A DNA stretch of 64,000 nucleotides from Methanolinea sp. (GTDB lineage Archaea; Halobacteriota; Methanomicrobia; Methanomicrobiales; Methanospirillaceae), in contig JADFDO010000004.1 in NCBI GenBank assembly GCA_018262855.1, positions 62,001 through 126,000 of the forward strand. The letters are read 5' to 3'. Positions 12,994 through 50,272 of the stretch are shown here, in pieces (position 1 is the stretch's first letter; every line of letters starts with the position of its first letter). The position numbers and the translations under genes are program-made. Under the pieces are notes generated by a model. The model searched no databases. It saw nothing but the letters and a program-made list of their open reading frames with translations, and had not been told where the DNA came from.

Positions 12994-13278
12994 GGAACCC
13001 TCACCGTCACCTCTCCCATGAATATGCATATGCAGGATAGACCTTCCGTCTATAACAGGTTGCCTGTTCCCGGTGACGTGAAGAAGGGGGCCATACCGCC
13101 TGACCAACCGCAACACCTGGAACAGTATGACGACCTTTTCCGACGATCCTTCCCGGATCTCTTTCCTGTGGAACCATTCCGGTTAATAGTATCCGCCCCA
13201 TTGAAGGGGAATTGACACTCCCCTGTACCATCCCTGACTCCGGGACAGGGTCCAGGGGGTATCCTCCGGGATCACTCC

Positions 13279-31058: not shown

Positions 31059-31084
31059 GGTATCTGATGGATCAGGGTGGATTG

Positions 31085-31093
31085 TATTTATAG
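31085..31093 (-). promoter_or_regulatory. TATA box of the GH81-like operon
   Basis: On the minus strand the sequence reads CTATAAATA, a near-ideal archaeal TATA box. It is centred about 30 bases upstream of the ATG at 31058, placing the transcription start within a few bases of the start codon. Confidence 0.6.
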
Positions 31094-31199
31094 GTGGTGG
31101 GGAGGGGAAAACGTTTGAGGAATGGCCACGTTTTTTTTATCAGAATAAAGAAGGTAAAGAAGGAATGGAGACCGGATGAACGGAATAAAAAACCGGTGA

Positions 31200-31808: not shown

Positions 31809-32000
31809 TTTTATCAGATCATAATGGTGTTGAAACCTCTGTGATATAAAATTACATGATAGATTTACTGCATTAGACCTTCCACATCGTAGATTGGAAT
31901 GAGAGGCTGTATGAAAACTGCCAGGCAATCATTTTCCTGAAATTCCCGTGCGGCACTCACATTTAATGCATTTGCTGTTCCCATCTGGTGCAGGGGTATC

Positions 32001-32768: not shown

Positions 32769-32804
32769 ACCCTGGAAACGGCATGAAGAACTGGTCGCCT
32801 TGGG

Positions 32805-33341: not shown

Positions 33342-33548
33342 CAGGAACCTGTCGCCACAGGTATCCTTAACATGATCATGATGAAGCCGAAATAAAATCC
33401 TAAAAGGGTCCTATACTCATAGTGCATCATCGGCCAGCGAACAGTTCGGGGACCGCCGTGCAGATCTCTGCTGTACACCCCGGTTTCCCGAAAGGCGGGA
33501 GAAGGAGAACCCTCTTATTTTTCCAGTTCAAGGCTATACCTTCTTGGT

Positions 33549-34928: not shown

Positions 34929-35152
34929 ATGAGCCGGGAGTGATTGCACTTGAACGGTTCCTGATTCCAGGAGCGGTGAAGGGGGACCATGTTTCACACT
35001 ATCTTATTAAATTGAAAACAACTCCGGTCCTGCAGTTCAGTGGCTCAATAATATACTGTAAAGGATGGGGAGGGAAGTCCTCACAGAAAGAAGAGTGAAT
35101 CTACAACGAATTTCTACGTCATGAAATAAAGGAGGCGAGGGCTGGAATGCCA

Positions 35153-35575
35153 TTATACCTTTACATTGGCTGAATCCAGCTCTTTTTCCCTCATCATCTC
35201 CCGGCGTTTTATCCAGACGAGGTCGTTCCCGTAAAACCCATAACTCCGGAGAGTTGCTACCTCGATCTCCGGGGGATTGCCGTTTACCTCCGCTCCGTGG
35301 GGAACCATGAGGATCAGCCGGGTTTTTGTTATCCAGCGGAGAGGTGCAGCGGCAGCCATCTCTTTCAGGGCGTGTCCATCCTCCGCGGTCACGTGCTTGG
35401 TGAACCTGACGAGCACGTGTGCGCTTTCCTGGTGTCCCGGCTGTGTCTGGGAGACGAGGTATCCCGCACCCGCAGTGTTCGGGATGCTCCTGATCTGCCA
35501 GCCTTCTATACTGGGAAAGAGCCGCCTGAGCTCTTTTGCGACGAAACTATGCATGATGCCTTCGATGGATACCAT
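35153..35575 (-). CDS. Conserved hypothetical protein
   Basis: A 140-residue soluble protein with an alpha/beta composition. It begins with a helical segment (HSFVAKELRRLFP) and ends with a basic helix (WIKRREMMREKELD). No domain is recognised. The ATG at 35575 or the internal ATG at 35554 could be the start. The upstream region is AT-rich and promoter-like (about 35600-35650). It stands alone, convergent with the COG3044-like ATPase gene. Confidence 0.55.
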   Translation of the reverse strand: MVSIEGIMHSFVAKELRRLFPSIEGWQIRSIPNTAGAGYLVSQTQPGHQESAHVLVRFTKHVTAEDGHALKEMAAAAPLRWITKTRLILMVPHGAEVNGNPPEIEVATLRSYGFYGNDLVWIKRREMMREKELDSANVKV

Positions 35576-35776
35576 TGTGGGTCACTTCATGTCATCAATG
35601 CAAAGGAGACCATATAAAATATATCGCTTTTGTTTTATATTAATCAGGTTAAATTGATGCGTTTTCTGTGAGCCCGGATTTCCGATCGGACGATAATTTT
35701 TGTGCCGATCTCAAATGGGTCAAGTTAAATACTCTTAATTAACTGCACACACACGCCGGATCCATCAGGAAAAAAC

Positions 35777-35995
35777 ATGAAAATGCGGAAAAGAACATCT
35801 CGGGCTCTTGCCTCCTATCTCCTGGATCTATACTTGGAGAAGAGAAACTCCTTACAGAAAAGGAGGGAAAGAAAAGGAACTGCAAGGACTTCGCCGCGAA
35901 TCATTCCCCCAACTCAAAAGGGAATGATGGGATCAGAAAACCCTTACAAAGGAAATAATCCCGTTGTGGGGGATTTCAACATGAATAATGTTTAA
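35777..35995 (+). CDS. Possible small basic protein
   Basis: A 72-codon frame encoding a very basic protein (KMRKRTSRALASYLLD at the start). An AGGA-type ribosome site and an AT-rich promoter-like stretch (about 35722-35742) lie upstream. The second half is low in structure, and no family is recognised. It could be a nucleic-acid-binding protein or a chance frame. Confidence 0.3.
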   Translation: MKMRKRTSRALASYLLDLYLEKRNSLQKRRERKGTARTSPRIIPPTQKGMMGSENPYKGNNPVVGDFNMNNV

Positions 35996-36020
35996 ACTGC
36001 ATCAATAGGAATATCAATGC

Positions 36021-36305
36021 ATGGCGGATCGTTTCCCCAATCCCGTATCCCCGTTTCCCGGCTGGAAACGCCATGTCTACCGGCTTTCACGCCCTGTCTC
36101 CAGCGAGGATATCCAGGCATTTCTGGGGAATGAGGAACTCTACACCAGGGACACAGCATCAGGTCCGGTTCATATTATTCATAAATATGGCCTCCTCGAA
36201 ATTCATGCGCTCGTCGGCGAACAATATATTGAAGTATGGTTCAATCCGGAGAAGGGATCTTACCCGTCAGAATACCTCGATGCCCTTCTTGCAAGCCGGT
36301 TTTAA
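36021..36305 (+). CDS. Small conserved hypothetical protein
   Basis: A 94-residue protein with a mixed alpha/beta pattern (SSEDIQAFLGNEELYTRD, then GLLEIHALVGEQYIEVWF), resembling small methanogen proteins of unknown role. The good alternation of hydrophobic residues makes it likely to be real. A weak purine-rich ribosome site lies upstream. Confidence 0.5.
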   Translation: MADRFPNPVSPFPGWKRHVYRLSRPVSSEDIQAFLGNEELYTRDTASGPVHIIHKYGLLEIHALVGEQYIEVWFNPEKGSYPSEYLDALLASRF

Positions 36306-36398
36306 GAGAACCTGAATGAATGAGGACCTTCTACGATTCCCCTTTCTGGTAAAATGCATACACAATATAAATCGCGGATACGCTTCTAAAAAAAAGGT

Positions 36399-36608
36399 TT
36401 AATCGATCCCGATCAGGACTTCTGTGGCCTTCATGACCGCATAGACAGGCTTGCCTTCGGCAAGTTTCAGGTTCTCTGCCGAGTGGGTCGTGATGACCGA
36501 GACTACCTCTGCTCCTCCCTGGAGGGTTATGACGACCTCGGTATTGACCGGGCCCTTCTTGATCATCTTGACTGTCCCCTTAAGCTGGTTTCGTGCGCTT
36601 ATCTTCAT
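36399..36608 (-). CDS. Molbindin-type (Mop/TOBE) molybdate/tungstate-binding protein
   Basis: A 69-residue protein formed by one Mop/TOBE domain (KISARNQLKGTVKMIKKGPV, then VVITLQGG and ITTHSAENLKLAEGK). Such molbindins bind molybdate or tungstate oxyanions and buffer them in the cytoplasm. The ATG at 36608 is preceded by a ggtga ribosome site, and the in-frame GTG at 36620 is less likely. The gene diverges from the metal-transport-like island that starts at 36923. A shared regulatory region is possible, but a functional link is only suggested by proximity. Confidence 0.88.
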   Translation of the reverse strand: MKISARNQLKGTVKMIKKGPVNTEVVITLQGGAEVVSVITTHSAENLKLAEGKPVYAVMKATEVLIGID

Positions 36609-36922
36609 GAAATTCACCACTCGTACTTCATACAGGGTCTATAAATAATCACGTATCGATCATCCGACCATCCGGGTCTTCCCGCAATGCCGAATCTCTT
36701 GAGAAGTATGATACAAGAGATCTGCTAATCTGGAAAATTGATTTAGGTCAATTATGTTAACTATATTAATTTATTTTATTTAATTTTTTAATAAAGTTAA
36801 ATATATTACCATAACTTGAAATAATCTCCATCCCAACATTCTTGTTACGACGATCTATGTGCGAAATTTGCCATTTGCCATGAGCACACTTCCACATGCT
36901 TCTTTCCCTGGGAGGAGCATGC
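36609..36922. other. AT-rich divergent promoter region of the transport/radical-SAM island
   Basis: This 314-base gap is strongly AT-rich between 36735 and 36830, in contrast to the GC-rich genes around it. It contains two near-identical 13-bp direct repeats, listed separately, one of which overlaps a TATA-like sequence. I see no coding sequence. Confidence 0.6.
36756..36808 (+). promoter_or_regulatory. Pair of 13-bp direct repeats spaced 40 bp apart
   Basis: GTTAACTATATTA at 36756-36768 and GTTAAATATATTA at 36796-36808 differ by one base. They start 40 bp apart, close to four helical turns, so proteins bound to both would sit on the same DNA face. The second copy overlaps the best TATA-like element (TTAAATATA). 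This is a plausible regulator site controlling the island. Confidence 0.45.
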
Positions 36923-38035
36923 ATGGAAGGAATACCCATTGAGGAGAGTATGACAACAATCACGCAACAGATATCGGAAGCATACCTGTTGATCCGTCCG
37001 TATCTCACCGAAAAGATCGTATCTTCCACCCTGATTTATGGAACTCTTCCGATACTGTTCATCGTATCTCTTTTTCTGGGTCGTTACGAGGTCCCTCCGT
37101 CCCATGTTCTTAAGATTCTCGCTGCACCGCTGGCCAACCTGTTTCCCGAACAGGTGATGCATATCGATCCCGTCTGGACTACAGCGGAACAGAACGTCAT
37201 TTACCTTATCCGCCTGCCCAGGGTGATCGCAGCGGTGCTTGTAGGGGCAGGACTTGCGATAGCGGGGGCGGCGTACCAGGGTCTCTTTAAAAATCCCCTG
37301 GTCTCCCCGGACATCCTCGGGGTATCTTCGGGAGCTGGTCTTGGAGCCGCACTTGCCATTCTCCTTTCGGCGAGTTCATTCATGATCCAGGTCTCTGCGT
37401 TCTTTTTCGGCATCCTCGCAGTGACTATCACCTACCTGCTCAGTCGTTTTTACCGCACGACTCCCACGCTGATCCTCGTCCTTTCCGGCATCATTGTTGG
37501 TGCTTTTTTTACCGCGTTGATCTCGCTCACCAAGTATCTCGCCGACCCATACGAGAAACTCCCGGCAATCACGTTCTGGCTGATGGGAAGCCTGGCGTCG
37601 GTCAGGTATACCGATATACTCCTGATCGCACCTCCCCTTCTTCTCGCTGCGGCGGTTCTCCTCCTGATCCGGTGGCGGATCAATCTCCTTGCCGTAGGTG
37701 ACGACGAAGCCCGGGCGCTCGGGATCGATACGAAGAGGATGTCGCAGGTAATCATCCTCTGTTCCACTCTCATCACTGCAAGTGCAGTCTGTATAGCGGG
37801 GATCATCGGGTGGGTCGGCCTCGTTGTGCCACACCTGGGCCGGATGCTTGTCGGCCCGGATTACAGGAAACTCCTACCGGTCACAATCCTTCTCGGGGCA
37901 TCATATATGCTAATCATCGATGATATCGCGAGAAACCTGACGAGTGCTGAGATCCCTCTCGGGATACTCACCGCGATTATTGGTGCACCCTTCTTTGCTT
38001 ACCTGCTCAGGAAGCGCTCGGTGGGATGGACATGA
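36923..38035 (+). CDS. FecCD/BtuC-type ABC transporter permease
   Basis: This 370-residue membrane subunit belongs to the iron-siderophore/cobalamin/heme importer class. About ten hydrophobic helices are present, and family motifs include RLPRVIAAVLVGAGLAIAGA followed by YQGLFKNPLVSPDILGVSSG. LGRMLVGPDYRKLLPV near residue 310 contacts the ATPase. The N-terminal extension of about 40 residues before the first helix is slightly long. The ATG at 36923 has a GGAGGAG ribosome site five bases upstream, so I reject the upstream frame opening at 36896. Its end overlaps the ATPase gene by ten bases. It serves two different binding proteins encoded downstream. Confidence 0.93.
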   Translation: MEGIPIEESMTTITQQISEAYLLIRPYLTEKIVSSTLIYGTLPILFIVSLFLGRYEVPPSHVLKILAAPLANLFPEQVMHIDPVWTTAEQNVIYLIRLPRVIAAVLVGAGLAIAGAAYQGLFKNPLVSPDILGVSSGAGLGAALAILLSASSFMIQVSAFFFGILAVTITYLLSRFYRTTPTLILVLSGIIVGAFFTALISLTKYLADPYEKLPAITFWLMGSLASVRYTDILLIAPPLLLAAAVLLLIRWRINLLAVGDDEARALGIDTKRMSQVIILCSTLITASAVCIAGIIGWVGLVVPHLGRMLVGPDYRKLLPVTILLGASYMLIIDDIARNLTSAEIPLGILTAIIGAPFFAYLLRKRSVGWT

Positions 38036-38880
38036 TCCTGGAAGTCAATCGTGCGGGATTCGCCTATCCGGGGAGGCAGCACGTCTTTTCGGATATCTCC
38101 TTCTCTCTTGCAGACCGGGAAGTGCTCTGTATCCTGGGCCCGAACGGGATCGGCAAATCGACCCTGATCCGGTGCCTGGCAAACCTGTATCTCCTCTGTT
38201 CGGGCTCGATCCGTCTCTTTGGGAAGGAGATGGCGGGGCTCCCGCAGGTCGAGATAGCAAAGAAGATCGGCTATGTTCCCCAGGCCCACGAGATCGTCTT
38301 CCCTTTCACCGTCAGGGATTTCATTCTGATGGGAAGAGCCCCTCACCTCACCGCATTCTCCTCGCCGGGGAAGGAGGACTGCGAGATCGCCACTGAGAAG
38401 ATGAGGCTCGTTGGTATCGAAAAAATTGCGGGAAAACCGGTGAACGAGATCTCCGGAGGGGAATATCAGCTCGCCATGATCGCACGTGCGTTGACGCAGG
38501 AACCGGCGGTCCTGCTCCTTGATGAACCAACTTCGCACCTCGATTTCGGCAACCAGATCCGGGTCCTCGAGATTATCGACCGCCTCGCGGATCGTGGCCT
38601 CTCCGTGGTCATGAGTTCGCATTTCCCGGACCACGCTTTCCTTGCTTCGAACTCGGTCGCCATCATGAAGCACGGGACTTTCATGGCCTATGGACTTGCG
38701 GAAGAGGTCGTCACCGAAGAGAACCTGAAACAGACGTACGGGGTGGACGTCTCGATTGCCTACAGCCCCCATGTCGCACGACACATCTGTGTGCCGCACA
38801 GGTCAGGTACCTGCCGGTGCAGGGGTGAGCGGCACGGGGAATGTTCCGGGACCCCGTCAAGTGGAATAGTTGGGAGGTAG
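38026..38880 (+). CDS. FecE/BtuD-type ABC transporter ATPase with a Cys/His-rich tail
   Basis: A 284-residue ATPase driving import through the FecCD-type permease. Motifs seen are Walker A GPNGIGKST (about 40-48), Q-loop VPQAHEI, signature ISGGEYQLAMIARAL (about 142), Walker B VLLLDEPTSHLD and H-loop VMSSHFPDHA. The core should end near residue 250. An added tail from about 251 to 284 contains four cysteines and three or four histidines (HICVPHRSGTCRCR and GECSG), a composition suggesting metal binding. The gene overlaps the permease by ten bases and is therefore translationally coupled. Confidence 0.93.
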   Translation: MDMILEVNRAGFAYPGRQHVFSDISFSLADREVLCILGPNGIGKSTLIRCLANLYLLCSGSIRLFGKEMAGLPQVEIAKKIGYVPQAHEIVFPFTVRDFILMGRAPHLTAFSSPGKEDCEIATEKMRLVGIEKIAGKPVNEISGGEYQLAMIARALTQEPAVLLLDEPTSHLDFGNQIRVLEIIDRLADRGLSVVMSSHFPDHAFLASNSVAIMKHGTFMAYGLAEEVVTEENLKQTYGVDVSIAYSPHVARHICVPHRSGTCRCRGERHGECSGTPSSGIVGR

Positions 38881-38973
38881 GAGTCTTTGTAAGGATAGTG
38901 CCGAAGACGAACATGAAGGAAACCATGTGCTACCTCGTAGTTGGAATCTTACGAATTTCAGGATTGAAATGAT

Positions 38974-40074
38974 ATGGAAAAAAAACAGGGACAATCCGAA
39001 GTGAACCACACTTCGATGAAGATTATTGCCGCGATTATCGCTGCCGCTCTCGTGATAGTGCTTACCGCTATCTTCATCCTGCCACTTGTGTCAAGCCCAC
39101 AGGACACCGGCGGAGCCCGCACAGTCACCGACATGATTGGAAACACGGTCGTGATTCCGACCGATATCAACAGGATTGTGATAACCTGCTGCGGAGGAGC
39201 GACCCATGAGGTGATGGTCATGGGAGGATCCGACAGGATAGTCGCCCAGCCAGCCAAGTGCATCATGCCCCAGCTCAAGGTGATGAAGCCGGGATTCTCC
39301 GCCGTGACAGATGCGGGCTCCTTTGACGAGGTCAACGTCGAACAGATCGTTGCCCTCCACCCGGATGTTGTGGTTGCGGCAGTCACCTCCGAAAAAGGGA
39401 ATACGAAGATCCGCGAGGCCGGGATTCCGGTCATAACCGTCATGGTCGGTCGTGGAAACATCAGCCAGCTGAAGAGAGAATTCACCATAATGGGCAACCT
39501 GCTCGGGAATGAGCAACAGGCAGCATCCCTCAACACGTACTGGGACACGAAACTCGCCCTGGTAAAGGAACGGGTCGCAGGGATCCCGGCAGAGCAGAAA
39601 ATAAGGGTCTATTACATGCTTGGCAAAACGACTCACACCAACGGGGGCGGCTGGTGGGGGCAGGAGTTCATCACTGCAGCCGGTGGCATCAATGTTGCCG
39701 AGGAACTCGGGACGATCCGGGACACCTCAGTTGAGCAGCTGGTCAGGTGGAACCCTGACGTCATTATCCTGAGCAGCAACGAAGGCACATTCATCCCGGT
39801 TGATGAGGTGAAGAACAACGACCAGCTGGCCAGCATTGAAGCGGTCAGGAACAACCGGATCTACGAATGCCCGATCGGCTCGTTCTGGTGGGACCGCCCG
39901 TCACCCGAGGCTCCACTCGGGATCCTGTGGCTCGCAAAAACAATCTACCCGGAAAAATTCACCGACATTGACCTTAAAGCCGAGACCCAGGCCTTTTTCC
40001 GGACCTATTACGGGTACAATCTCAGCGACCAGGAATACGAGAAGTTCCTCAATCCACAACCTGCCAAGAACTAA
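38974..40074 (+). CDS. ABC transporter substrate-binding protein 1 (periplasmic-binding, FecB/BtuF-like)
   Basis: A 366-residue extracytoplasmic binding protein with an N-terminal membrane anchor (residues 16-38). The DMIGNTVVIP motif starts the first lobe. The linker helix runs to about residue 210 (LLGNEQQAASLNTYW), and lobe two begins with IRVYYMLGK and AAGGINVAEEL. The ligand-site region contains WWDRPSPEAP near residue 308. Two adjacent cysteines (ITCCGGATHE, about 56-65) and KCIMP near 90 lie in the first lobe and could contact a metal or thiol ligand. No siderophore-synthesis gene is present, so the ligand is unknown. It is one of two binding proteins sharing one permease and ATPase. 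Confidence 0.9.
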   Translation: MEKKQGQSEVNHTSMKIIAAIIAAALVIVLTAIFILPLVSSPQDTGGARTVTDMIGNTVVIPTDINRIVITCCGGATHEVMVMGGSDRIVAQPAKCIMPQLKVMKPGFSAVTDAGSFDEVNVEQIVALHPDVVVAAVTSEKGNTKIREAGIPVITVMVGRGNISQLKREFTIMGNLLGNEQQAASLNTYWDTKLALVKERVAGIPAEQKIRVYYMLGKTTHTNGGGWWGQEFITAAGGINVAEELGTIRDTSVEQLVRWNPDVIILSSNEGTFIPVDEVKNNDQLASIEAVRNNRIYECPIGSFWWDRPSPEAPLGILWLAKTIYPEKFTDIDLKAETQAFFRTYYGYNLSDQEYEKFLNPQPAKN

Positions 40075-40088
40075 TCGCGTGAACGAAC

Positions 40089-41180
40089 ATGACACCAGTG
40101 AAAATTGATCTCGCAAATGTCAGGGTGGGGGAGGAGATCTCTTCCATCGATCGGGTTGTTGACGGATATAAGACCTACCAGGTTCTCAAAGTTGCAATTG
40201 AACTTGGTCTGTTCGAGTGGCTCGATGAGCATGGACCATCGCCCCGGGAGGAGATCGGGAACGCATTGTCCATCAACGGCATGTTTACCCGGAGTTTTTT
40301 CCAGACCCTTGATGAACTCGGGTATCTCTCAGGGGAGGGTGATTACTTTGGAAATACGGAGAGCGCTACCCGCTTACTTGTCCGGAAGAGTCCGGCATAC
40401 CAGGGAGACTGGATCCTCAATGCATCCAGGGTGAACGGACAATGGGACCGCTTACAGGACACACTGACTGAAACAGCGCCGAAAAATACCGGATTTTACG
40501 ATGGTCCGAGTCCGGAGTTCCTCCGGGCGCTCGCAGAACGGTCACTCAGGGGTGAAGTGCAGGAGGTCACGAAAATTCTCACCGGATGGGAGCGTTTCTC
40601 TTCGGCGAAAAAACTCCTGGACCTGGGTGGCGGGCACGGGCTTTATGCAATCGCTGCCTGCCAGAAGAATCCCGGCCTCCACGCGGTAATCTTTGACAAA
40701 CCTCACGTGGTCGGCCTGACCAGGGAATTTATCCAGCATTACGGTATGGAAGACCGCATTTCAGTCATGGCTGGAGACATTGTCACGGATGATCCCGGCA
40801 GTGGGTATGATATCGTGATGATATCCCATCTCCTCTACAAGTTCCGGGCAGACCTCCCCCCCATCTTCAGCAAAGTCGCATCGAGCATGAAACCAAGCGG
40901 TCTCTTTGTCTCCAACCACTGGTTCTGCGGGCCGGTCTGCGGGGAAGGATCGTCAGGGATCAGCGAACTTGATCGGTCCATCCACAGTTACGGCCACCCG
41001 CTCTGCCATCCGGAACAGTTTGCGAGCGCGATGTTCGCCAACGGACTCGTCGTGACGAAAAAGACCACCGTCCCGAGCAATTTCGGGATCTCCCATGTCC
41101 ATATTGCGGAAAAAGTGCCGGAGGGGAACAGCCTGGTGCTCCACCCTGACGAGTCCAGCGGGTGCATGTCATGTCGATGA
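40089..41180 (+). CDS. O-methyltransferase-like SAM-dependent protein with CxxC tail
   Basis: A 363-residue protein of the dimeric small-molecule O-methyltransferase group (hydroxyindole/caffeate type). A winged-helix dimerisation domain (about 20-105, VLKVAIELGLFEWLDEHG) precedes the SAM-binding Rossmann domain, with motif I KLLDLGGGHGLYAIA near residue 178 and GYDIVMISHLLYKF near residue 240. The last residues, SSGCMSCR, form an unusual Cys-x2-Cys tail. It lies 14 bases after the binding protein and overlaps the DUF364 gene by an ATGA junction, so it is a core member of the island. The substrate could be a ligand carried by the transporter (inference). Confidence 0.85.
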   Translation: MTPVKIDLANVRVGEEISSIDRVVDGYKTYQVLKVAIELGLFEWLDEHGPSPREEIGNALSINGMFTRSFFQTLDELGYLSGEGDYFGNTESATRLLVRKSPAYQGDWILNASRVNGQWDRLQDTLTETAPKNTGFYDGPSPEFLRALAERSLRGEVQEVTKILTGWERFSSAKKLLDLGGGHGLYAIAACQKNPGLHAVIFDKPHVVGLTREFIQHYGMEDRISVMAGDIVTDDPGSGYDIVMISHLLYKFRADLPPIFSKVASSMKPSGLFVSNHWFCGPVCGEGSSGISELDRSIHSYGHPLCHPEQFASAMFANGLVVTKKTTVPSNFGISHVHIAEKVPEGNSLVLHPDESSGCMSCR

Positions 41181-42106
41181 AAGCAGCATCTGAGGACAGG
41201 GCAGATTCGGCAATGCCGGTAGTATCCCCCGAACAGGGTGCTATCCTCAGGGAGACCGTCGCAGACCTCAGGTCACGGATAGGTGAGCAGTGTGCCGGGA
41301 TCACTGTAGACAGGGTCACGATCGGCATCTTCTTCACAGGTGTGAAACTCAGCAACGGTTCAGGAGGGCTCTGTTTCACCCCAATAAAAGAGATTCCCGA
41401 AGCGGTCTGCTGCCCGAGTTCGCTGCGGGCCCTGCCATGGTCGGGGACATTCCGCGGCCGGCCGGTCACGGATTTCCTCGACGCACTCTTTGACACGAGC
41501 CCGATGAAGCGGGCTGTCGGGATCGCGGTGGTGAACGCACTGTCCGCACCGTTCCTTGAGAACATTTCGACGCAGGGATTCACTATCGAGCGGGGATCGG
41601 ATGCCCTGGAGGCAATCGAGATTCCTGACGATGCACATGTGGTCGTCATCGGTGCTCTGGTGCCGATCCTCATGAGGCTCAAGAGGCGGAAAAAACCGTT
41701 CTCCATCATAGAAATGGACCCCCGGACTCTCAAACCCGACGAGATGCCTTTCTGGGTTCCGGCGGAAAAGACCTGCGAAGTTGTACCTGGTGCCGACCTG
41801 CTGGTGATCACCGGGACAACGCTCCTCTTCCACTCGCTCGAACCCATTCTTGCCTGTGCGAAGCCAGGGGCGAAAGTCGTTATCGTCGGACCGACCGCGA
41901 GCATGCTTCCCGATGCGTTTTTCCGAAGGGGAGTGAGCGTCATGGGCGGTGACCTGGTCACCCGCCCCGACGACCTCCTGGATATTCTCAGTGAAGGGGG
42001 TTCAGGGTACCACTTCTTCGGAAAATCGGCGGACCGGATGATCATTCAGAAAAGAGACCCTGCATCCCATGATGCAGGAATTGGACAGATTATTCGAGGA
42101 GATTGA
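41177..42106 (+). CDS. DUF4213/DUF364 protein (putative heavy-metal chelation)
   Basis: A 309-residue cytoplasmic protein. The N-terminal DUF4213 part contains IGIFFTGVKLSNGSGG followed by FTPIKEIPEAVCCPSS. The DUF364 Rossmann-like part reads DDAHVVVIGALVPI, IIEMDPRTLKPDE and ADLLVITGTTLLFHSLEPIL. DUF364 has been named a putative heavy-metal chelation domain on structural grounds, but its chemistry is unproven. Members occur next to iron-siderophore-type ABC importers, as here. The chosen ATG overlaps the upstream TGA (ATGA). A GTG at 41162 and an ATG at 41171 are alternatives. Context implies handling of the imported metal complex. Confidence 0.88.
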   Translation: MKAASEDRADSAMPVVSPEQGAILRETVADLRSRIGEQCAGITVDRVTIGIFFTGVKLSNGSGGLCFTPIKEIPEAVCCPSSLRALPWSGTFRGRPVTDFLDALFDTSPMKRAVGIAVVNALSAPFLENISTQGFTIERGSDALEAIEIPDDAHVVVIGALVPILMRLKRRKKPFSIIEMDPRTLKPDEMPFWVPAEKTCEVVPGADLLVITGTTLLFHSLEPILACAKPGAKVVIVGPTASMLPDAFFRRGVSVMGGDLVTRPDDLLDILSEGGSGYHFFGKSADRMIIQKRDPASHDAGIGQIIRGD

Positions 42107-42108
42107 GT

Positions 42109-43206
42109 ATGGAAAAGAAGAATGTTTACATCATGACGGGCGCAATCCTGGTGCTGCTCTGCATAGCAGTCCTCTGGTCGGGCTGCACCAGCACCTCATC
42201 ACAGCCTGCAGCGACAGAAAAGACAACGAAGACCATCACGGACATGATAGGGAGAAACCTCGAGGTCCCGATAAAGATCGACAGGGTTCTTACGACAGTC
42301 CCAATGACCACTATCGCCGTATATGCCCTGGCTCCTGAAAAGCTGATCGGGGTTAACCTCGATCCAAACAAGGTGAACGGGAGAGTGTTTATGCCGGAAC
42401 AATACCGTGCCCTGCCCAATGTTGGGGGATGGTTCGGCAAACAGACCGGGAACTATGAACTGTTCATGTCCATGAATCCCGACATCATCATTGAAGGAGA
42501 AGGCATAGGAGAATTCAAGAGCGTCCTCGATGAACACCAGACGAGGTTCGGCGCGATTCCCGTCGTTGGAGTGCTGGATGCACGGAATGCATCGGCGTAT
42601 GATGAATCGATCACTTTCGTCGGCCGGCTTCTCGGTACCGAGGCTAAGGCAGGCGAGCTGAACGAATTTTATACGAGGGTGCTCTCGACCGTGAAAAATC
42701 GTGTATCCGGCATCCCTGCAAATGAGAAAGTGAGAGTGTACTATGCCGAAGGCCCCAAGGGTCTCCAGACCGACCCCACGGGATCTGTCCATTCTGAACT
42801 GATCGATCTTGCCGGGGGAATCAACGTCGCTGACTGCCAGATCACGCCCGGTATGGGGATGACACCGGTCTCCATGGAACAGGTGACGAAATGGGACCCC
42901 GAGGTTATCATCGTGAGCGACCCGCCATTTTACGCCGGAATCTATAACGACACACTCTGGCAATCAATCCCCGCAGTGAAGAACCACCGTGTCTACCTCG
43001 TCCCGCAATCGCCGTACCCGTGGTTTGACCGGCCGCCGGGCATCAACCGGATCATCGGGATTCCATGGACGGCAAAGATCCTGTATCCGGAAAAATTCAG
43101 CGACCTGGATCTCCCGGCACTCACAAGGGAGTTCTACCAAAAGTTCTACCATTACGACCTCTCGGACAGCGAGGTGGACAGCCTGCTGGACCCCACCCTC
43201 ATGTGA
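42109..43206 (+). CDS. ABC transporter substrate-binding lipoprotein 2
   Basis: A 365-residue binding protein with a lipobox (VLWSGC, lipidated Cys near residue 25) and a Ser/Thr-rich linker. Two lobes are joined by a long helix (VGRLLGTEAKAGELNEFY). Its architecture parallels binding protein 1: TDMIGRNLEVP opens lobe one, VRVYYAEGP and LAGGINVAD open lobe two, and WFDRPPGINR sits at the ligand site. It lacks the CC pair of protein 1, so the two probably recognise different forms of the substrate. The ATG at 42109 has an aggaga ribosome site, and the TTG at 42103 is rejected. Confidence 0.9.
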   Translation: MEKKNVYIMTGAILVLLCIAVLWSGCTSTSSQPAATEKTTKTITDMIGRNLEVPIKIDRVLTTVPMTTIAVYALAPEKLIGVNLDPNKVNGRVFMPEQYRALPNVGGWFGKQTGNYELFMSMNPDIIIEGEGIGEFKSVLDEHQTRFGAIPVVGVLDARNASAYDESITFVGRLLGTEAKAGELNEFYTRVLSTVKNRVSGIPANEKVRVYYAEGPKGLQTDPTGSVHSELIDLAGGINVADCQITPGMGMTPVSMEQVTKWDPEVIIVSDPPFYAGIYNDTLWQSIPAVKNHRVYLVPQSPYPWFDRPPGINRIIGIPWTAKILYPEKFSDLDLPALTREFYQKFYHYDLSDSEVDSLLDPTLM

Positions 43207-43225
43207 CCCGGAACAGGTGTGGAGA

Positions 43226-43873
43226 ATGAACGGCACAGGAACTCAAAAATGGACCGGAAAAGAGCGATCTGCGTCCGAATTCAATGAGATGGCCCGGAAT
43301 GTCTTTGCCCCTGCATACCCTGCTATTGCACGGCAGGCAATCGGTTGTTGTGGTTTTGACCGTGGACTTTGCGTCGATGCAGGGTGCGGTCCGGGCCACC
43401 TGGCGATTGCACTTGCCGGCGAATCCGGATTCTCCATCGATGCGCTGGACATGTCGCTGGACATGCTCTCATGTGCGGAGAAGAACATCCGGGATTCAGG
43501 GATGAGCACGCGTATTCGGACAGTCCACGCCGATGTCCATGCCCTTCCCTACGGGGACTCTTCGGTCGACCTCGTCGTGAGCAGGGGATCCGTCTTCTTC
43601 TGGGATGCACCGGATCGGGCCTTTGCCGAGATCTACCGGGTCATCCGGCCTGGCGGCAGGACCTTTATCGGTGGAGGATTTGGCACCCCGTCAATCCGGG
43701 AAGAGATCACCGCAAAGATGCGGACAATCGACCCCTCTTGGGAAGAGAAGGTGAAAGGGAATATGGGCCCCGCAAAGGATGCAGAATTAAAAGCAGCTCT
43801 TAACGCTGCAAAGATCCCGGATTACGAAATGGTCAGGGATGGATCGGGATTCTGGATCGTGATGAAGAAGTGA
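43226..43873 (+). CDS. Class I SAM-dependent methyltransferase of the island
   Basis: A 215-residue UbiE/ArsM-like methyltransferase. Motif I CVDAGCGPGHLAIALAG lies near residue 50, motif II ALDMSLDML near 74, DVHALPYGDSSVDLVVSRG near 100 and VIRPGGRTFIGGGFG near 138. A vicinal Cys pair (IGCCGF) precedes motif I. Its last codons overlap the region of the radical SAM start (GTG at 43870, ATG at 43879), so it is coupled to that gene. The frame is open upstream, but the ATG at 43226 has a GTGTGGAG ribosome-site-like sequence. The substrate is unknown; the context suggests the transported ligand. Confidence 0.87.
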   Translation: MNGTGTQKWTGKERSASEFNEMARNVFAPAYPAIARQAIGCCGFDRGLCVDAGCGPGHLAIALAGESGFSIDALDMSLDMLSCAEKNIRDSGMSTRIRTVHADVHALPYGDSSVDLVVSRGSVFFWDAPDRAFAEIYRVIRPGGRTFIGGGFGTPSIREEITAKMRTIDPSWEEKVKGNMGPAKDAELKAALNAAKIPDYEMVRDGSGFWIVMKK

Positions 43874-43878
43874 GTGGT

Positions 43879-45669
43879 ATGCGTTGTGATATCTGTGCAG
43901 TGGGATGTTCCATTCCGCATGGAAAGACCGGTCGTTGCGGGATGTATACCTACGACGGTTCCGGGATAGTCGAGCGTTTCCCCGATTCGTTCCTCGCAGC
44001 CTTCCCGATCGCCATAGAGACCCAGCCGATGCTGCATTTCTACCCGGGCGGCAAGTTCCTCCAGGTCTGCACCGCGGGATGCAATTTCCGTTGTGATGGT
44101 TGTGTCTCGGAGATTCTTGTCGATCATGCGGAGTCCCTCGCCCTGTCAAAGTCGGCACTTAGTATGGAGGATGTCATCAGGTGTGCACATGCTGAAGGAT
44201 GCATCGGGATCTCCTTTGCGTTGAACGATCCCATCGCGTCGTTCCCGACTTTCTGCAGGCTGGCCCGGATTGCCCGCGAACAGGGGCTTCTTGTAGGGTG
44301 CTCGACCAACGGCTACCTGACTGTCCACTCGTTGCAAACCCTCACCCCGCTCCTCGATTATGCGAATATCGGATTAAAAGGGGCAAGCGACCACTGTTAC
44401 CGCTCTTGCGGTGCACAATCGGCCTACCCTGTCTTTTACACTATCGCACAGATGTTTCATGTAGGGGTTCACGTCGAAGTCTCGCTGGTCTACCGGAAGG
44501 GACAGGAGGATGAGGTGCTTTGCGCCGCTGAGCGGATTGCAGGCATATCAAGAGAGATTCCTCTCCAGTTGATGCGGTTTGTCCCGTTCGGTGATACGAC
44601 TCCTGGATCGGAGCCGACCATCTTCGAGAGCGAGCACCTTTGCGACAGGCTTAGGGAATACCTTTCATGGGTATATCTTTTCAATTCTCCGGGAACCGGA
44701 TATCTCACCACAAAATGCCCGGAATGTGGAAAAGACTGCATCAGGAGGGAATTTTTCGGACCGATGGGTGCACACATTTCGGGAGTCGCTCAGAAAAAGT
44801 GTGACTGCGGGTATGCCCTGCCGGTAAAGGGATCTATCGCGACCGATGTGTTCACCGAACCAGGGATGATGGGGGGATACCGGATAACCCGGGGGCTCGA
44901 GATGATCTGGGCAATACTCGCGTGTCTCGGGGTCGATGACCAGAAAACGCTCTCCCGGATCTGGGGTGAGGTCTTGAAGACAGGGATGCTGAAAAAAGAG
45001 TTGCACGACCGGATGAACAATATCGATGCTTACCTTGGGTTCGTCAGCGATCTTGCAGGTAAAACCGGGCGTGAAGAGGCCGGGAGGGATCTCTGCAAGT
45101 TCATCACGACGCGACTCGAAATGATCCGGAAAATGGTGGAGGGAACACCAAGACCCCGTGTGTACTATGCCATGGGACACCCGCTCTTTGCCCTCAATCC
45201 CGGACGGTTTGAGGGGAAACTTGTCGAGGCAGCGGGAGGGGTCTATGTCAACCGTGCGATCGGCAGGGAGGGAAAACCCGGTGTGACGATTCAACGCGAG
45301 GAGTTTGTCGCTCTCAACGCGGACTTCCTGTTCACGTCAGGGTTTCTTACTTCGACAGTCGAGGACACGCTCCGCTACTGTAAAGAGCATTCGCTTGATG
45401 TTCCGGCGGTCCGGAAAAGCCAGGTATATACTATGCATCCTTCATGGGATTTCGGGAGCCCGAGATGGATCCTTGGCCTGATGACTATTGCGAATACCAT
45501 CCATCCCGGCCTTTTTGATTTTTCAATCGATGAGGAAGCGGACCAATTTTACCGGAAGTTCTACGGTGTTCCGTATCATTCAGTTGCCACCAACAGATCA
45601 TTTGCCCATGCGGGATCTCTCCAGGCAGGAACCGGTGACAGAAAAATGGATTCCCCGGTGATGCGGTAA
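43879..45669 (+). CDS. Radical SAM protein fused to half of a periplasmic-binding domain
   Basis: A 596-residue protein. The N-terminus has four cysteines (CDICAVGC, then GRCGMY; residues 3-20), as in activase-type radical SAM proteins of COG1180 style. The cluster motif CNFRCDGC lies at 68-75 (CX3CX2C), and a radical-SAM barrel extends to about 275. A zinc-ribbon-like CPECGKDC/CDCGY segment follows (about 279-316). From about residue 385 (YLGFVSDLAG) to 565 the sequence follows the linker helix and second lobe of the two binding proteins encoded upstream. Shared marks are PRVYYAMG, AAGGVYVN, the VRKSQVYTMHPSWDFG ligand region and FYRKFYGVPY. There is no signal peptide, so the half-domain is cytoplasmic. 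The ATG is preceded by GAAGTGAG; a GTG at 43870 is the alternative. Confidence 0.85.
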   Translation: MRCDICAVGCSIPHGKTGRCGMYTYDGSGIVERFPDSFLAAFPIAIETQPMLHFYPGGKFLQVCTAGCNFRCDGCVSEILVDHAESLALSKSALSMEDVIRCAHAEGCIGISFALNDPIASFPTFCRLARIAREQGLLVGCSTNGYLTVHSLQTLTPLLDYANIGLKGASDHCYRSCGAQSAYPVFYTIAQMFHVGVHVEVSLVYRKGQEDEVLCAAERIAGISREIPLQLMRFVPFGDTTPGSEPTIFESEHLCDRLREYLSWVYLFNSPGTGYLTTKCPECGKDCIRREFFGPMGAHISGVAQKKCDCGYALPVKGSIATDVFTEPGMMGGYRITRGLEMIWAILACLGVDDQKTLSRIWGEVLKTGMLKKELHDRMNNIDAYLGFVSDLAGKTGREEAGRDLCKFITTRLEMIRKMVEGTPRPRVYYAMGHPLFALNPGRFEGKLVEAAGGVYVNRAIGREGKPGVTIQREEFVALNADFLFTSGFLTSTVEDTLRYCKEHSLDVPAVRKSQVYTMHPSWDFGSPRWILGLMTIANTIHPGLFDFSIDEEADQFYRKFYGVPYHSVATNRSFAHAGSLQAGTGDRKMDSPVMR

Positions 45670-45677
45670 TCGGGATC

Positions 45678-45685
45678 TTTTTTTT
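45678..45685 (+). terminator. Oligo-T terminator ending the island
   Basis: T8 begins nine bases after the radical SAM stop codon, a typical archaeal transcription end. Confidence 0.55.
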
Positions 45686-45719
45686 ACAACACGGGACTAC
45701 CCTTATATCTTCTAATCCT

Positions 45720-45916
45720 GCCTCCTTCACATCTGACCTCCGGGCGATTCTGATGAGCTGGCAAATACGTTTCCCGCCGACCACAATTACTGGAAAGAGA
45801 AAGGATGGATGGAGAGTTATACCCGCTATTTTTTCGATGCCCTGGCCAACCTGATTCACCAGGCTGTGGAAATGGTTCTGGAACGATACAAGCAAGACAG
45901 ATGCAAAGAGAACTGA
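45720..45916 (+). pseudogene. Decayed 3' remnant of a flavodoxin-family gene
   Basis: From 45752 to 45916 the plus strand encodes DELANTFPADHNYWKEKGWM and a continuation ending at TGA. It closely follows the C-terminal part of the intact protein at 32001-32768 (DELVETFPADYAYWTEKGWM). Just upstream, another frame (LRAI, compare LRAT) continues the match, so a one-base frameshift lies near 45750, and the N-terminal three quarters are missing. This is a truncated, frameshifted gene copy of about 65 codons with no start codon. Confidence 0.75.
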
Positions 45917-46017
45917 TCTGGCAGGCAGATTCAGACAGATCCCCTGATATTTTTGAAACAATCCGATGAAAGAATCAGGTGGGTTTTTCTGCGGTGTTAT
46001 TGAAAAAAGACATTACG

Positions 46018-46491
46018 TCAGGATTCCTCCCATGCCATGAGTCCCTTCAGGTGATGCAACTGCCATTCCCGCTCCCGGAGTGTTGCAGATTCTGCGTCAG
46101 ACGATGACGAAGCGTCGCGAACCGCAGTAGCTGCATAGAGTGCCGCGGCAAGTGCATGCCGTGGTACGTGGGCTGTTGCCATGGCCTGACCTGCAGCACG
46201 GGCGGCGGAACGGGCTGCATCATCCTCCTCAACAGTCCGGGCTGCCGCATGGGCTGCAAGGGAAGCCCTCCTGACCTCGGACATGTGAAATTCACCAGTG
46301 CGTATCCACGCACGTAATGCTGAGATCGCGTCCCGGGGGCGGGTATCGCCCGGATATTTCTCTTCAAAATGCGGCAGTACCCGCTCGGCACAGTCAGCCG
46401 CCCAGGTTGCCAGGGTTTTGTGGGGCGTATTGAGTGAAATCTCTTCGATTGCGCTATCCATACCGGTCTTTACGATTTTTCGTCTTTTCAT
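46018..46491 (-). CDS. Imm5-like putative immunity protein
   Basis: A 157-residue, alanine-rich helical protein. The pattern W-AADCAERVLPHFEEKYP, PRDAISALRAWIRTGE, AAHAAAR and AARAAGQAMATAHVPRHAL matches a family annotated as putative immunity (Imm5-like) proteins. In bacteria these can neutralise polymorphic toxins, but many members are solitary. No toxin gene is adjacent, so the role here may differ. ATGs at 46491 and 46461 are candidate starts; neither has a strong ribosome site. Confidence 0.7.
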   Translation of the reverse strand: MKRRKIVKTGMDSAIEEISLNTPHKTLATWAADCAERVLPHFEEKYPGDTRPRDAISALRAWIRTGEFHMSEVRRASLAAHAAARTVEEDDAARSAARAAGQAMATAHVPRHALAAALYAATAVRDASSSSDAESATLREREWQLHHLKGLMAWEES

Positions 46492-46879
46492 ACGAGGTCG
46501 CTTCTTTTTTGGGAACTATGCCGGTTGTATCTATAACAGGTCAGAAGGTTCTGTCGCGCTATCGCCCAATCATGCTGTTTTACTCATATTTTTGATAAGA
46601 TTCGTCATTTCAGACAGGATACCCTCGAAGAGGGATTCCGGCTATTCAATTATGATACTACCCATTCTATCTGGTATTATATTTCCTGCGGCGTCTGTCC
46701 TGAAAGAGGCATACAAAACCCCGGACAACACGCACCTCTCCAATCCACTGGGTATTACCTGAATCTCCAAATTTCCCTTTTCAAGCCTGCCCTCCTTGCA
46801 TACAGGTCCACCAAAGAGCTCCCCACTGAACCAGAGAGCGAGACATTAATGAGTGTTCCACCGCTAGGAATTATAGAGA
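46492..46879. other. Intergenic region upstream of the sensor kinase
   Basis: About 390 bases with lower GC content and several AT-rich stretches, the clearest near 46670-46685 (ggtattatatttcc). No coding sequence or structured RNA was recognised. It probably holds the promoters of the divergent genes on either side. Confidence 0.4.
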
Positions 46880-49105
46880 ATGGAATCCAGCCCGGGAAAA
46901 GAGACCCGCATCTCGGTCCTCTACGTCGATGATGAACCTGCGTTGCTCGATATCATGAAGACCGTCCTCGAACGGTCAGGACTTTTCACCGTTGCGACCA
47001 CAAAGGATGCCTCTGATGCTCTCCGGATGCTCGACCTTCACCGCTATGATGCCATCGTATCCGATTACCAGATGCCAGGGATGGACGGGATCGAACTCCT
47101 GAAGATTGTCAGGGACAGATTTGGCAGTATCCCGTTTATCCTGTTCACAGGGAAAGGCCGCGAGGAGGTCGTGATCGAGGCCATCAATAACGGTGCGGAT
47201 TTCTACCTCCAGAAAGGCGGTGACATGAAGTCACAATACACCGAGCTCTCCAACAAGATCCAGTATGCGGTCTCCCGCAGGCGTGTCGAGCTGGATTTGC
47301 GCGAGAGCGAGGAGCGGTACCGGAATGTTGTCGAGGACCAGACTGAGCTGATCTGCCGGTTTCTCCCTGATGGGACACACGTTTTTGTCAACGAGGCATA
47401 CTGCCGGTACTTCGGAATCAGCCGGGAAGAGATCATTGGCAGCAGGTTCAGGCCAAAGTTACCCCGTGAGGACCGGGATGCAGTGACCCGTCTCATAGAG
47501 ACGCTTACGCCGGATCATCCACTCGGTACCATTGACCAGCGGATCGTGATGCGGGACGGGAGCATCCGCTGGCAGCGCTGGGTAGACCGTGCGATCTTCC
47601 TTCCCGGGGGTACCATGAAGGAATTCCAGTCAGTTGGCAGAGATATCACGGAACTAAAGACTGCCGAGCAGGCGCTTCGTCAGAATGAAGAGAAATACAG
47701 GGCGGTCTTTGAGAATACCGGGACCGCAATGGTCACCATTGAGGAAGACCAGGTCATTAGCCTCGCCAACGATGAGTTTGCAAGGTTGTCCGGGTATTCC
47801 AGGGACGAGATTGAGGGGAAGAAGCGCTGGGCGGAGTTCGTGGTCCCCGAAGACATGGAGCGGATGGTTGAACAGCACCGGCTGCGAAGGCAGAACCATG
47901 ATAAGGCGTTGACTCATTACGAGTTCCGGTTCATCACGAAGTCCGGTGAAATCCGTGATATCTACCTTTCCATTGACATGATCCCGGGGACCAAAAAGAG
48001 TATTGCATCTCTCCAGGATGTATCCAGATGGAAAAACACCCAGAAGGCCCTGGTGGAGAGCGAGGAGCGGTTCCGGCAGCTCTTCTCAAGGATGCCGAGC
48101 GGGGTTGCAATTTATGAGGCAGTTGACGATGGCGGGGACTTCATCATCAAAGATTTCAACACGAACGCAGAATCCATCGAGCACGTCAGAAAAGACGAGG
48201 TCGTCGGCAGGCGTGTGACCGAAGTATTTCCAGGAGTGAAAGGTTTTGGCTTATTCTCAGTCTTCCAGAGGGTGTGGAGGACAGGGACGCCCGAATATTT
48301 TCCAAAGGCTATATATAGAGATGCTCGTGATCCCGGGAGCTGGAGGGAGAACTGGATTTACCGGTTGCCAACCGGAGAGGTCGTCGCAATCTACAACGAC
48401 ATCACCGACAGGAAACTGTCGGAAGAGGCACTTAAACAGGCCAATAAGCAGTTGAACCTGCTTTCAAGTATCACACGGCATGATATCCTCAACCAGTTGT
48501 TGTCCCTCAGGGCATATATCCAGGTCTCCCGGGGTCTGCTGGAGAACAAACCTGCCCTTGCCGAGACATTTGACAAGGAGGAGAAGATCGCCGGGATCAT
48601 CGAGGAGGAGATTATCTTTACGCGGGACTACCAGGAGATGGGGGTAAAGAAACCATCGTGGCAGAACCTAAACGCAGTGATCAACCAGGTGATTCCACAA
48701 TTGCCCCGGAATGATGTCAGCATCACGGTTGACCGGTCAGACATCGAGGTTTTTGCCGACCAACTCCTGGAGAAGGTCTTCTTCAATCTTCTTGACAATG
48801 CACTCCACTATGGGGGTTCCACATTGCACGAGATTAAGATCGCGTCGCAGGTTGGTGAAGAGAGTCTCACCATCATCTGCGAGGACGACGGGACGGGGAT
48901 AAGACCTGAGGACAGGCCCTATCTTTTTACGAGGGGGTTCGGGAGGCATACCGGTCTTGGTCTTTTCCTCTCGAAGGAGATCCTCGCAATCACGGGAATG
49001 ACGATCAGGGAGAACGGGGAACCCGGGAAAGGAGCACGGTTCGAGATCGTCGTCCCCCGGGAATGCTTCCGCATATCTGGTGGGAATGCCGGGCCCGGGA
49101 ATTGA
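46880..49105 (+). CDS. Hybrid response regulator / PAS / histidine kinase
   Basis: A 741-residue cytoplasmic signalling protein. The N-terminal receiver domain (about 8-125) has phosphoacceptor Asp 62 in VSDYQMPGMDG and a conserved Lys in ADFYLQKGG. Three PAS domains follow (about 143-262, 267-388 and 392-520). A His-phosphotransfer helix contains TRHDILNQ with His 534, and a HATPase_c domain (about 620-735) has N-box NLLDNALHY, DDGTGI and FGRHTGLGLFL. There are no membrane helices, so signals are probably sensed in the cytoplasm, possibly by a redox cofactor or ligand in a PAS domain. The output partner is not encoded nearby. This architecture is common in Methanomicrobiales. Confidence 0.92.
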   Translation: MESSPGKETRISVLYVDDEPALLDIMKTVLERSGLFTVATTKDASDALRMLDLHRYDAIVSDYQMPGMDGIELLKIVRDRFGSIPFILFTGKGREEVVIEAINNGADFYLQKGGDMKSQYTELSNKIQYAVSRRRVELDLRESEERYRNVVEDQTELICRFLPDGTHVFVNEAYCRYFGISREEIIGSRFRPKLPREDRDAVTRLIETLTPDHPLGTIDQRIVMRDGSIRWQRWVDRAIFLPGGTMKEFQSVGRDITELKTAEQALRQNEEKYRAVFENTGTAMVTIEEDQVISLANDEFARLSGYSRDEIEGKKRWAEFVVPEDMERMVEQHRLRRQNHDKALTHYEFRFITKSGEIRDIYLSIDMIPGTKKSIASLQDVSRWKNTQKALVESEERFRQLFSRMPSGVAIYEAVDDGGDFIIKDFNTNAESIEHVRKDEVVGRRVTEVFPGVKGFGLFSVFQRVWRTGTPEYFPKAIYRDARDPGSWRENWIYRLPTGEVVAIYNDITDRKLSEEALKQANKQLNLLSSITRHDILNQLLSLRAYIQVSRGLLENKPALAETFDKEEKIAGIIEEEIIFTRDYQEMGVKKPSWQNLNAVINQVIPQLPRNDVSITVDRSDIEVFADQLLEKVFFNLLDNALHYGGSTLHEIKIASQVGEESLTIICEDDGTGIRPEDRPYLFTRGFGRHTGLGLFLSKEILAITGMTIRENGEPGKGARFEIVVPRECFRISGGNAGPGN

Positions 49106-49231
49106 CCCTCTGTATAGGCTGCTCCAGATCCGGCTCCAGTGTTGATAAACGTCTGAAAGAAAAAAGGTTTGACAAGAAAAGATATGGGAACGAGAAAATC
49201 GGCAAACCTAGAATATCTTCTCTGCACAAGT

Positions 49232-49995
49232 TCACGACTGATGTGAATCGTCCTCTTTCCTGGCCACGAAAAACGAATAGCCATATTCCTGTGAATGGAT
49301 GCGGAACATATCAATCTCCTCGTCAAACGATGCAAGAAGGGTCTGCACCTCATCGTCACCCTGATACTTCTTCTTTAAATCACCAACCCTTCGGGCAAGG
49401 GGTATGTAATAGGGGTCCCACCATGCAGAGTCGGGGAGCCGGAGGGTATTAAGGAGGAGATACCCTGAATCCCGGATCATCCTCTGGCCATCCTCCTCAT
49501 GCATTATCGCAGGATGCACCCGTGCGAAATAATCCCTGCTCTCCTGTATTGGAGTATGGGTGAACCAGAAAAGGTCTGATATTACGAGGTACCCGCCTCT
49601 TTTCAGGAACTGTTTCCAGTACTTGAGTGCCTTCTGAAATCCCATCACGAACGACGAGCCTTCGGCCCATACGAGATCAAAGGATTCGGCCGGGAATACG
49701 AGATCATCCATCGATGCACGCACGGTGGTGATCCGACCATCAAGGCCTGCGTTCCTGGCCGTCTCATTCACATCATCGAGAAAGGGTTGGTGAATATCAC
49801 TCGCGATAATGGTTGCATCCGGGAAGAGCCTTGCAAGAGCGAGGGTCTGCATCCCTGACCCGCATCCGATATCAAGGATCCGGGGATGTTCCGGGAGATT
49901 GGGGATAGTATGAAATGCCCTGGCCGTATATTCATCCAGTCCCGGACCCTGCCTTGGCAGTCCTTCGAATATGTTGAAAAAAATGTCTCTTCCAT
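49232..49995 (-). pseudogene. SAM-dependent methyltransferase with an N-terminal frameshift
   Basis: The in-frame part from the ATG at 49852 gives 206 residues but lacks motif I. Reading the same frame further upstream restores it (IFFNIFEGLPRQGPGLDEYT, then PRILDIGCGSGMQT), as in full-length methanogen methyltransferases of this type. No start codon exists in that frame before a stop. A good ATG at 49995 (MEE) lies in another frame, so one base has been lost or gained between about 49976 and 49992, possibly at the A7/T7 tract. Downstream motifs are ASMDDLVFPAESFDLVWAEGS and GGYLVISDLFW. It is either a recent pseudogene or a sequencing error; the remaining protein looks intact. Confidence 0.7.
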
Positions 49996-50272
49996 AACAG
50001 GAGATTCATGCAACGGGATCTGGCTTGTGATTTTTGGTCAAATTCCATCTTTCCCTTTTCAGGGTCAGCCAACCCGGCAGTCTTCATGACACCGGTGTTT
50101 ACGACAGATTCTACGATACTGACCAGGTACACAAAGGGTTTAAAATATAAAGATAAAAGTAGGGTATCGGGTGCTGTGTCACACGCATACAATCCACCTT
50201 TATATCGGCCTTAAACGGCACCCGCCATCAGTTCCGGAAAATGAACACGGACAGCGAATACGAGGTGTATAC

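Follow-up and report, generated by a model that had tools for sequence, protein, structure and literature searches.

A radical SAM enzyme fused to half of a class III solute-binding protein, encoded with an uptake system under molybdenum/tungsten-cofactor control in bacteria

Why should an enzyme that is predicted to work in the cytoplasm carry half of a solute-binding protein, next to two complete ones encoded by the same operon? The question arises in a stretch of 64,000 nucleotides of Methanolinea sp. DNA (assembly GCA_018262855.1, contig JADFDO010000004.1, positions 62,001 to 126,000), here called the window. Its operon, with all genes on the forward strand, encodes a FecCD-type permease (36896-38035; PF01032, 3.8e-91), an ABC transporter ATPase (38026-38880; PF00005, 6.3e-28), a full two-lobe class III binding protein, PBP1 (38974-40074; PF01497, 3.3e-33), a methyltransferase with an O-methyltransferase dimerisation domain (40089-41180; PF00891 and PF08100), a DUF4213/DUF364 protein (41162-42106; PF04016, 8.1e-40), a second full two-lobe class III binding protein, PBP2 (42103-43206; PF01497, 5.5e-23), and a class I methyltransferase, the usual partner of the fusion (43217-43873; PF08241, 2.7e-22, scored on the longer open reading frame 42989-43873). 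The fusion is the final gene and its ATG lies 5 bases past the methyltransferase stop codon. Its open reading frame, 43879-45669, is single and intact, with correct frame and coordinates, and encodes 596 amino acids. The start at 43879 is backed by the homologues, the majority of which begin with M[RK]C; an in-frame GTG at 43870 is an alternative start that would add three residues. An artefact of gene prediction or assembly was ruled out by the single frame found in most of the 64 named loci and by low dN/dS. Elsewhere in the window, a PF09818 'ABC_ATPase' gene (33549-34928) is located 2 kb upstream of the operon, and its homologues occur near unfused-type operons at three other loci (L035, L036, L048). 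A MoeA-type gene (MoeA_N, MoCF_biosynth; 11782-13116) lies about 24 kb upstream, which is too distant to count as context.

Three parts follow one another in the protein: residues 1-318 are a radical SAM enzyme, residues 319-378 form three helices, and residues 379-577 correspond to the linker helix and lobe two of a class III solute-binding protein. The enzyme domain (43879-44832) belongs to the radical SAM superfamily by both its PF04055 match (residues 64-212, 3.8e-8, 34.1 bits against a cut-off of 29.5) and its CX3CX2C [4Fe-4S] motif, formed by Cys68, Cys72 and Cys75 (44080-44103) and invariant in 21 homologues. The N-terminal Cys3, Cys6, Cys10 and Cys20 and the C-terminal Cys280, Cys283 and Cys310 are also invariant, and Cys308 almost so. 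Score and conserved columns make the domain AmmeMemoRadiSam-type; that enzyme (TIGR04337) is the nearest named family and aligns almost end to end, but a score of 95.1 bits against the curated cut-off of 220 (87-125 bits for four other fusions) leaves the fusion outside it. The fusion also differs from that family in its additional half binding protein and in the lack of any AMMECR1 or Memo domain among the proteins of the window operon. Residue 1 directly opens the conserved cysteine motif of the enzyme domain, with no N-terminal signal peptide before it, and the half-domain is internal, behind the radical SAM domain, with neither signal peptide nor lipobox. Judged from its sequence, the fusion is a cytoplasmic radical SAM enzyme. 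The AlphaFold2 model of the full-length protein reached pLDDT 87 and pTM 0.87.

The C-terminal part (45013-45609) was assessed by several searches. The Pfam profile PF01497 (Peripla_BP_2) covers residues 391-521, equivalent to profile positions 101-233 of 235. In the whole fusion protein this match scores 25.5 bits (1e-5), below the 27.5 cut-off, whereas the segment alone or a genome search gives 27.6-27.8 bits, above it; 20 of the 21 fusion members match the profile. A profile built from the half-domain detected two solved class III solute-binding proteins, PDB 4hn9 (5e-17) and 4pag (6.5e-14). In hhalign comparison with 16 full-length operon binding proteins (probability 99.87, E value 1.9e-31), fusion residues 379-579 paired with residues 153-357 of the 369 in the binding proteins, and lobe one found no counterpart in the fusion. 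Residues 318-582 were also modelled separately with AlphaFold2 (pLDDT 85, pTM 0.84), and the Foldseek matches listed for this model were all class III solute-binding proteins, the best being again 4hn9 (3.5e-9 over 193 columns). As Pfam, profile searches, AlphaFold2 and Foldseek are concordant, it can be concluded that the linker helix and lobe two are present and that lobe one is absent. An earlier sequence-only reading of this locus had proposed just this architecture without a signal peptide; the motifs that it cited are present, the profile searches found significant similarity to periplasmic-binding domains, and the predicted structure was that of a class III solute-binding protein and not an unrelated fold. 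The half-domain thus has the fold and sequence of lobe two of this class, and lacks the arrangement of two lobes joined by a linker helix. A remnant of lobe one was sought in the 60-residue connector (residues 319-378; 44833-45012) for its apparent likeness to the first binding-protein helix, but hhalign gave no match there. The helices of the connector are of a different type.

That reading had further suggested a copy of the operon's own binding proteins as the source of the half-domain, which proved to be wrong. A tree built from 85 lobe-two sequences put the half-domains of archaeal and bacterial fusions into one clade with full support, separate from the operon binding proteins (two rows within the clade that are labelled as binding proteins are fragments of broken fusions, at L080 and L130). 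A more careful tree gave the same clade (100/100). When the window's genome contributed five additional, unrelated binding proteins, the fusions still formed one clade (100), and the binding proteins of the operon intermingled with the unrelated ones of the same genome. Forcing the half-domain of the window to group with its own PBP2 cost 219 log-likelihood units and was rejected by the AU test (p-AU 1e-60). Given the single fusion clade and the rejected constraint, a recent local copy is ruled out. Tandem fusions of another sort were seen at four loci (L035:5890-8172, L036:7134-9428, L048:11280-13604 and L124:5402-7684), where two complete class III binding proteins make up one protein of 760-774 amino acids, adjoining the same kind of transporter genes.

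Purifying selection on the half-domain is strong: its dN/dS is 0.07-0.10, and the enzyme domain has an equally low value. Positions conserved specifically in fusions are Pro426, Pro435, Arg443, Glu445, Asn458, GxPG at 465-468, Cys501, the DFG loop at 524-526, Trp530 and His542. Cys501 (45379-45381) sits in an insert that is missing from all 39 binding proteins compared, and the cysteine is kept in 43 of 44 fusions. At position 542 (45502-45504) histidine is found in 40/44 fusions and tyrosine in 34/39 binding proteins. The ligand-loop segment SWDFGSPRW (residues 522-530; 45442-45468) is retained in the main fusion clade and has diverged in a second clade, which is without this motif.

The fusion is patchily distributed, with about 20 full-length copies among 61 relatives. 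In a scan of one genome per species the archaeal carriers were Methanoculleus, Methanolinea, Methanoregula, Methanospirillum, Methanogenium, Methanofollis, Methanocalculus and Methanohalophilus. In bacteria the carriers were Desulfobacula, Desulfobacter, Desulfospira, Desulfosarcina, Desulfovibrio, Geobacteraceae, Pelobacter, Desulfuromonas, Deferribacteraceae, Seleniivibrio, Acetobacterium, Pelotomaculum, Desulfosporosinus, Syntrophomonas, Moorella, Thiobaca and Chlorobiaceae; a match in Treponema leaves its contig inside the radical SAM part. Metagenome bins and broken copies make up some of these carriers. Within sampled bacterial groups the fusion is rare (4/117, 4/83 and 14/244 genomes, each count including the genome used as centre). 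The presence of full-length fusions in Methanomicrobiales, in Methanohalophilus and in several bacterial phyla leads us to conclude that the fusion is old and moves horizontally between lineages. The author of the sequence-only reading had not met such a fusion before, and our literature search likewise found no description of a radical SAM/half-binding-protein system; the family itself, however, is widespread. In one Methanoculleus locus (L058:9332-11068, the same locus as L080) an in-frame TAG at the connector divides the fusion into a 353-residue radical SAM part and a 213-residue half-lobe with a possible start of its own, which may reflect a sequencing error, a pseudogene or a true split.

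Uptake and methyltransferase genes surround the fusion. On the same strand, the 64 fusion loci carry a homologue of the class I methyltransferase in 51 cases, an ABC ATPase in 32 and a FecCD permease in 24, and Gram-negative loci additionally have TonB-dependent receptors. The bacterial operons are built from a TonB receptor, binding protein, FecCD permease, ATPase, FmdE, DUF364, methyltransferase and the fusion. A recurring order of the Desulfuromonadales type (L192, L198, L200) is methyltransferase, TonB receptor, binding protein, FecCD, ATPase, FmdE, methyltransferase, fusion, NTPase_1. Several fusions (L113, L200-L205) have nearby genes for regulators that combine a helix-turn-helix with PF12727, or for homologues of these; such regulators, FmdE and NTPase_1 are operon partners of Mo/W type. 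The transporter type beside the fusion varies between FecCD, SBP_bac_5 and NMT1 types: in the divergent archaeal clade the fusion adjoins SBP_bac_5-type transporters with NTPase_1 genes (L107, L118) and, at L122, lies near a ModA-like transporter. A link to corrinoids was considered and dropped, as a CobD/CbiB gene upstream of one fusion (L083) did not recur. FmdE-type genes can be numerous in methanogens, and for this reason their proximity to archaeal loci was judged to be weak evidence when taken alone; more weight was given to the bacterial operons and their RNA elements.

These RNA elements connect the bacterial operons with the molybdenum and tungsten cofactors. The Moco RNA class was described from bacteria, where it precedes genes for molybdate transporters, Moco synthesis and Moco enzymes (PMC2408646). 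Using Rfam at the gathering threshold for the Moco/Tuco riboswitch (RF01055) and Moco-II RNA (RF01713), we found one or the other in fusion loci L109, L111, L131, L192-L195, L206 and L130; at L131 the RNA is downstream of the fusion, ahead of the next genes of the cluster. Among 24 fusions from 21 genomes that have such RNAs (genome-wide RNA counts, genomes devoid of them being excluded), 8 had an element on the same strand within 10 kb upstream against 0.19 expected (P = 7e-12), 5 within 5 kb against 0.10, and 3 within 2 kb against 0.044 (P = 1e-5), where the P values are indicative, because relatives do not count as independent genomes and the distance limits were set by hand. All five sister operons with an unfused relative of the enzyme (L139-L143), picked up in the scan that also found the fusions, had RF01055 a short distance before the transporter or enzyme genes, and a broken copy in Moorella is also preceded by a Moco-type RNA. 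At L195 (Desulfuromonadales) the order is riboswitch, DUF364, TonB receptor, methyltransferase, fusion and binding protein, the last matching PBP1 of the window with 362 bits. At L206 a Moco riboswitch precedes a radical SAM gene and the fusion, and on its other side, upstream, lies a MoeA-PBP gene (4779-6686). Family loci with Moco-type RNAs thus occur in several bacterial lineages, including Desulfuromonadales, relatives of Desulfosporosinus and Moorella. Many bacterial fusion operons showed no Moco-type RNA inside the stretch scanned, and positions 30000-50000 of the window gave no Rfam match, so that the archaeal operon has no recognised Mo/W switch. The loci scanned contained no other metabolite riboswitch. 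We consider the molybdenum/tungsten link of the fusion operon in bacteria to be well supported. Since the fusion, methyltransferase, DUF364 protein and binding proteins are homologous, the archaeal operon of the window probably serves the same metals.

The best reading of the half-lobe is that it would hold an imported ligand for the radical SAM site, as first proposed from the sequence, and the genomic context narrows the choice of ligand to one under the control of the Mo/W cofactor. More specifically, the fusion could be the cytoplasmic enzyme of an ancient, horizontally spread Mo/W acquisition system, in which the half-lobe docks an imported metal complex or ligand and the enzyme modifies it; to this proposal as a whole we give an even chance of being right. 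The binding proteins, FecCD permease and ATPase, together with the TonB receptor in Gram-negative bacteria, would import a Mo/W complex, presumably together with an organic ligand, given the use of TonB receptors; such receptors near the Gram-negative fusions argue for a chelate over the free oxyanion. The complex, or its ligand, would then be docked by the half-lobe against the radical SAM barrel, radical chemistry and the partner methyltransferase would modify or open the ligand, and the freed metal could pass to pterin cofactor assembly. A bolder version, which we offer tentatively and regard as possible but doubtful, is a Mo/W counterpart of anaerobic heme breakdown, with half-lobe and barrel as two jaws of a substrate clamp in which the chelator of the imported metal is altered until the metal is freed.

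Precedents exist for parts of this scheme. HutW and HmuW (PMC10035031, PMC10404700) would work similarly, as they are radical SAM enzymes encoded with the uptake of a metal complex, whose imported ligand is modified in the cytoplasm with release of the metal; HmuW degrades imported heme by radical SAM chemistry, releasing iron (PMC10404700). They differ from the fusion in acting on heme and not Mo/W, and they are class C radical SAM methyltransferases; the likeness is one of proposed function and not of established family. To our knowledge, neither contains a binding-protein domain. The archaeal MoeA1 proteins known as MoeA-PBP, a family linked to tungsten, are similar to the fusion as cytoplasmic enzymes of Mo/W metabolism with a C-terminal binding-protein-like domain and no signal peptide, and their authors propose that the metal, tungsten or molybdenum, is captured and channelled into the active site (PMC11733289). 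The enzyme, however, is another one, the added domain is PF12727 and not PF01497, and a single lobe is found only in the fusion. At L206 two different cytoplasmic binding-protein fusions thus stand in one cluster. FecCD/BtuCD-type importers can carry molybdate, as exemplified by MolBC-A, which resembles the operon in joining a BtuCD-like importer with a class III binding protein (PMC4031551). Class III solute-binding proteins (PF01497; BtuF, IsdE, MolA) have linker helix and lobe two in common with the fusion in fold and sequence, whereas the fusion is without lobe one and signal peptide, joined to an enzyme and apparently cytoplasmic. Unlike the fusion operon, MolBC-A is not accompanied by a radical SAM enzyme, methyltransferase or half-lobe that we know of.

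The same genes could be read as a biosynthetic set, in which the operon makes a pterin-like or other Mo/W chelator (a metallophore), the radical SAM enzyme, methyltransferases and DUF364 protein are its enzymes, and the half-lobe holds the growing intermediate. Two methyltransferases and DUF364 in one operon would suit this, as would the additional radical SAM genes at L131 and L206 and the proposal that DUF364 takes part in the synthesis of flavin, pterin or siderophore-like chelators (PMC2954201); DUF364 genes, according to the same study, neighbour tungstate, molybdate and iron transport. Nevertheless, no exporter or assembly-line gene recurs among the fusion neighbours, and descent from a substrate-binding domain is better suited to handling an imported compound, which makes chelator synthesis rather unlikely in our view. 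At L131 (Desulfosporosinus) the two extra radical SAM genes (3020-4033 and 5411-6451), of which one encodes a BATS domain, alternate with genes for binding proteins, and the cluster is followed by a Moco riboswitch and then a second, unfused copy of the enzyme (11089-12090).

One could also suppose that the half-lobe no longer binds a ligand and serves purely as a structural or protein-protein module, perhaps as a docking site for the methyltransferase, with the enzyme having some other substrate in Mo/W metabolism. As lobe one is missing, the classical cleft cannot form within the domain, and the divergent clade has lost the ligand-loop motif. Yet the loop residues are strongly conserved in the main clade, the fusions have gained conserved residues of their own (P435, E445, N458, C501, H542), and a dN/dS of about 0.1 is kept across the half-domain; we find a purely structural role improbable. 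The cargo, finally, might be another metal complex, such as a corrinoid, heme, or a nickel or iron chelate, with the Mo/W RNA control of bacteria being a lineage-specific side regulation. Corrinoids, heme and siderophores are the usual cargo of class III binding proteins and FecCD permeases, proteins of this sort are among the PDB relatives from the profile and Foldseek searches, and the archaeal operon is without a known Mo/W switch. Against this stand the Moco-type RNAs of several bacterial lineages and of all five sister operons, and the lack of any other metabolite riboswitch in the loci scanned, so that we rate a different metal as the least probable of these explanations.

What is new, then, is a radical SAM subfamily with an enzyme-bound half binding protein, within an uptake system under Mo/W-cofactor control in bacteria, whose favoured role remains the handling of an imported Mo/W ligand, the reaction on it being presumably that of the radical SAM enzyme and the methyltransferase. 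The general view is that molybdate and tungstate are taken up as free oxyanions by Mod, Tup or Wtp transporters. The existence of a widespread operon that is under Mo/W-cofactor RNA control and combines TonB receptors, FecCD importers and a radical SAM enzyme suggests that anaerobes have a second route, based on chelates. It is also unusual for one lobe of a binding protein to be retained in an enzyme over long evolutionary time, and with the fusion it becomes possible to test how a lone lobe can still serve a ligand. A further family, X410, of about 390 amino acids and with no match in Pfam, NCBIfam or PDB, adjoins the unfused radical SAM relative in Moco-riboswitch operons (L035:9249-10412, L139:5003-7222, L097:6300-7472, L140, L141 and L143); in a Dehalococcoidales metagenome-assembled genome it is fused to a radical SAM relative of this unfused type.
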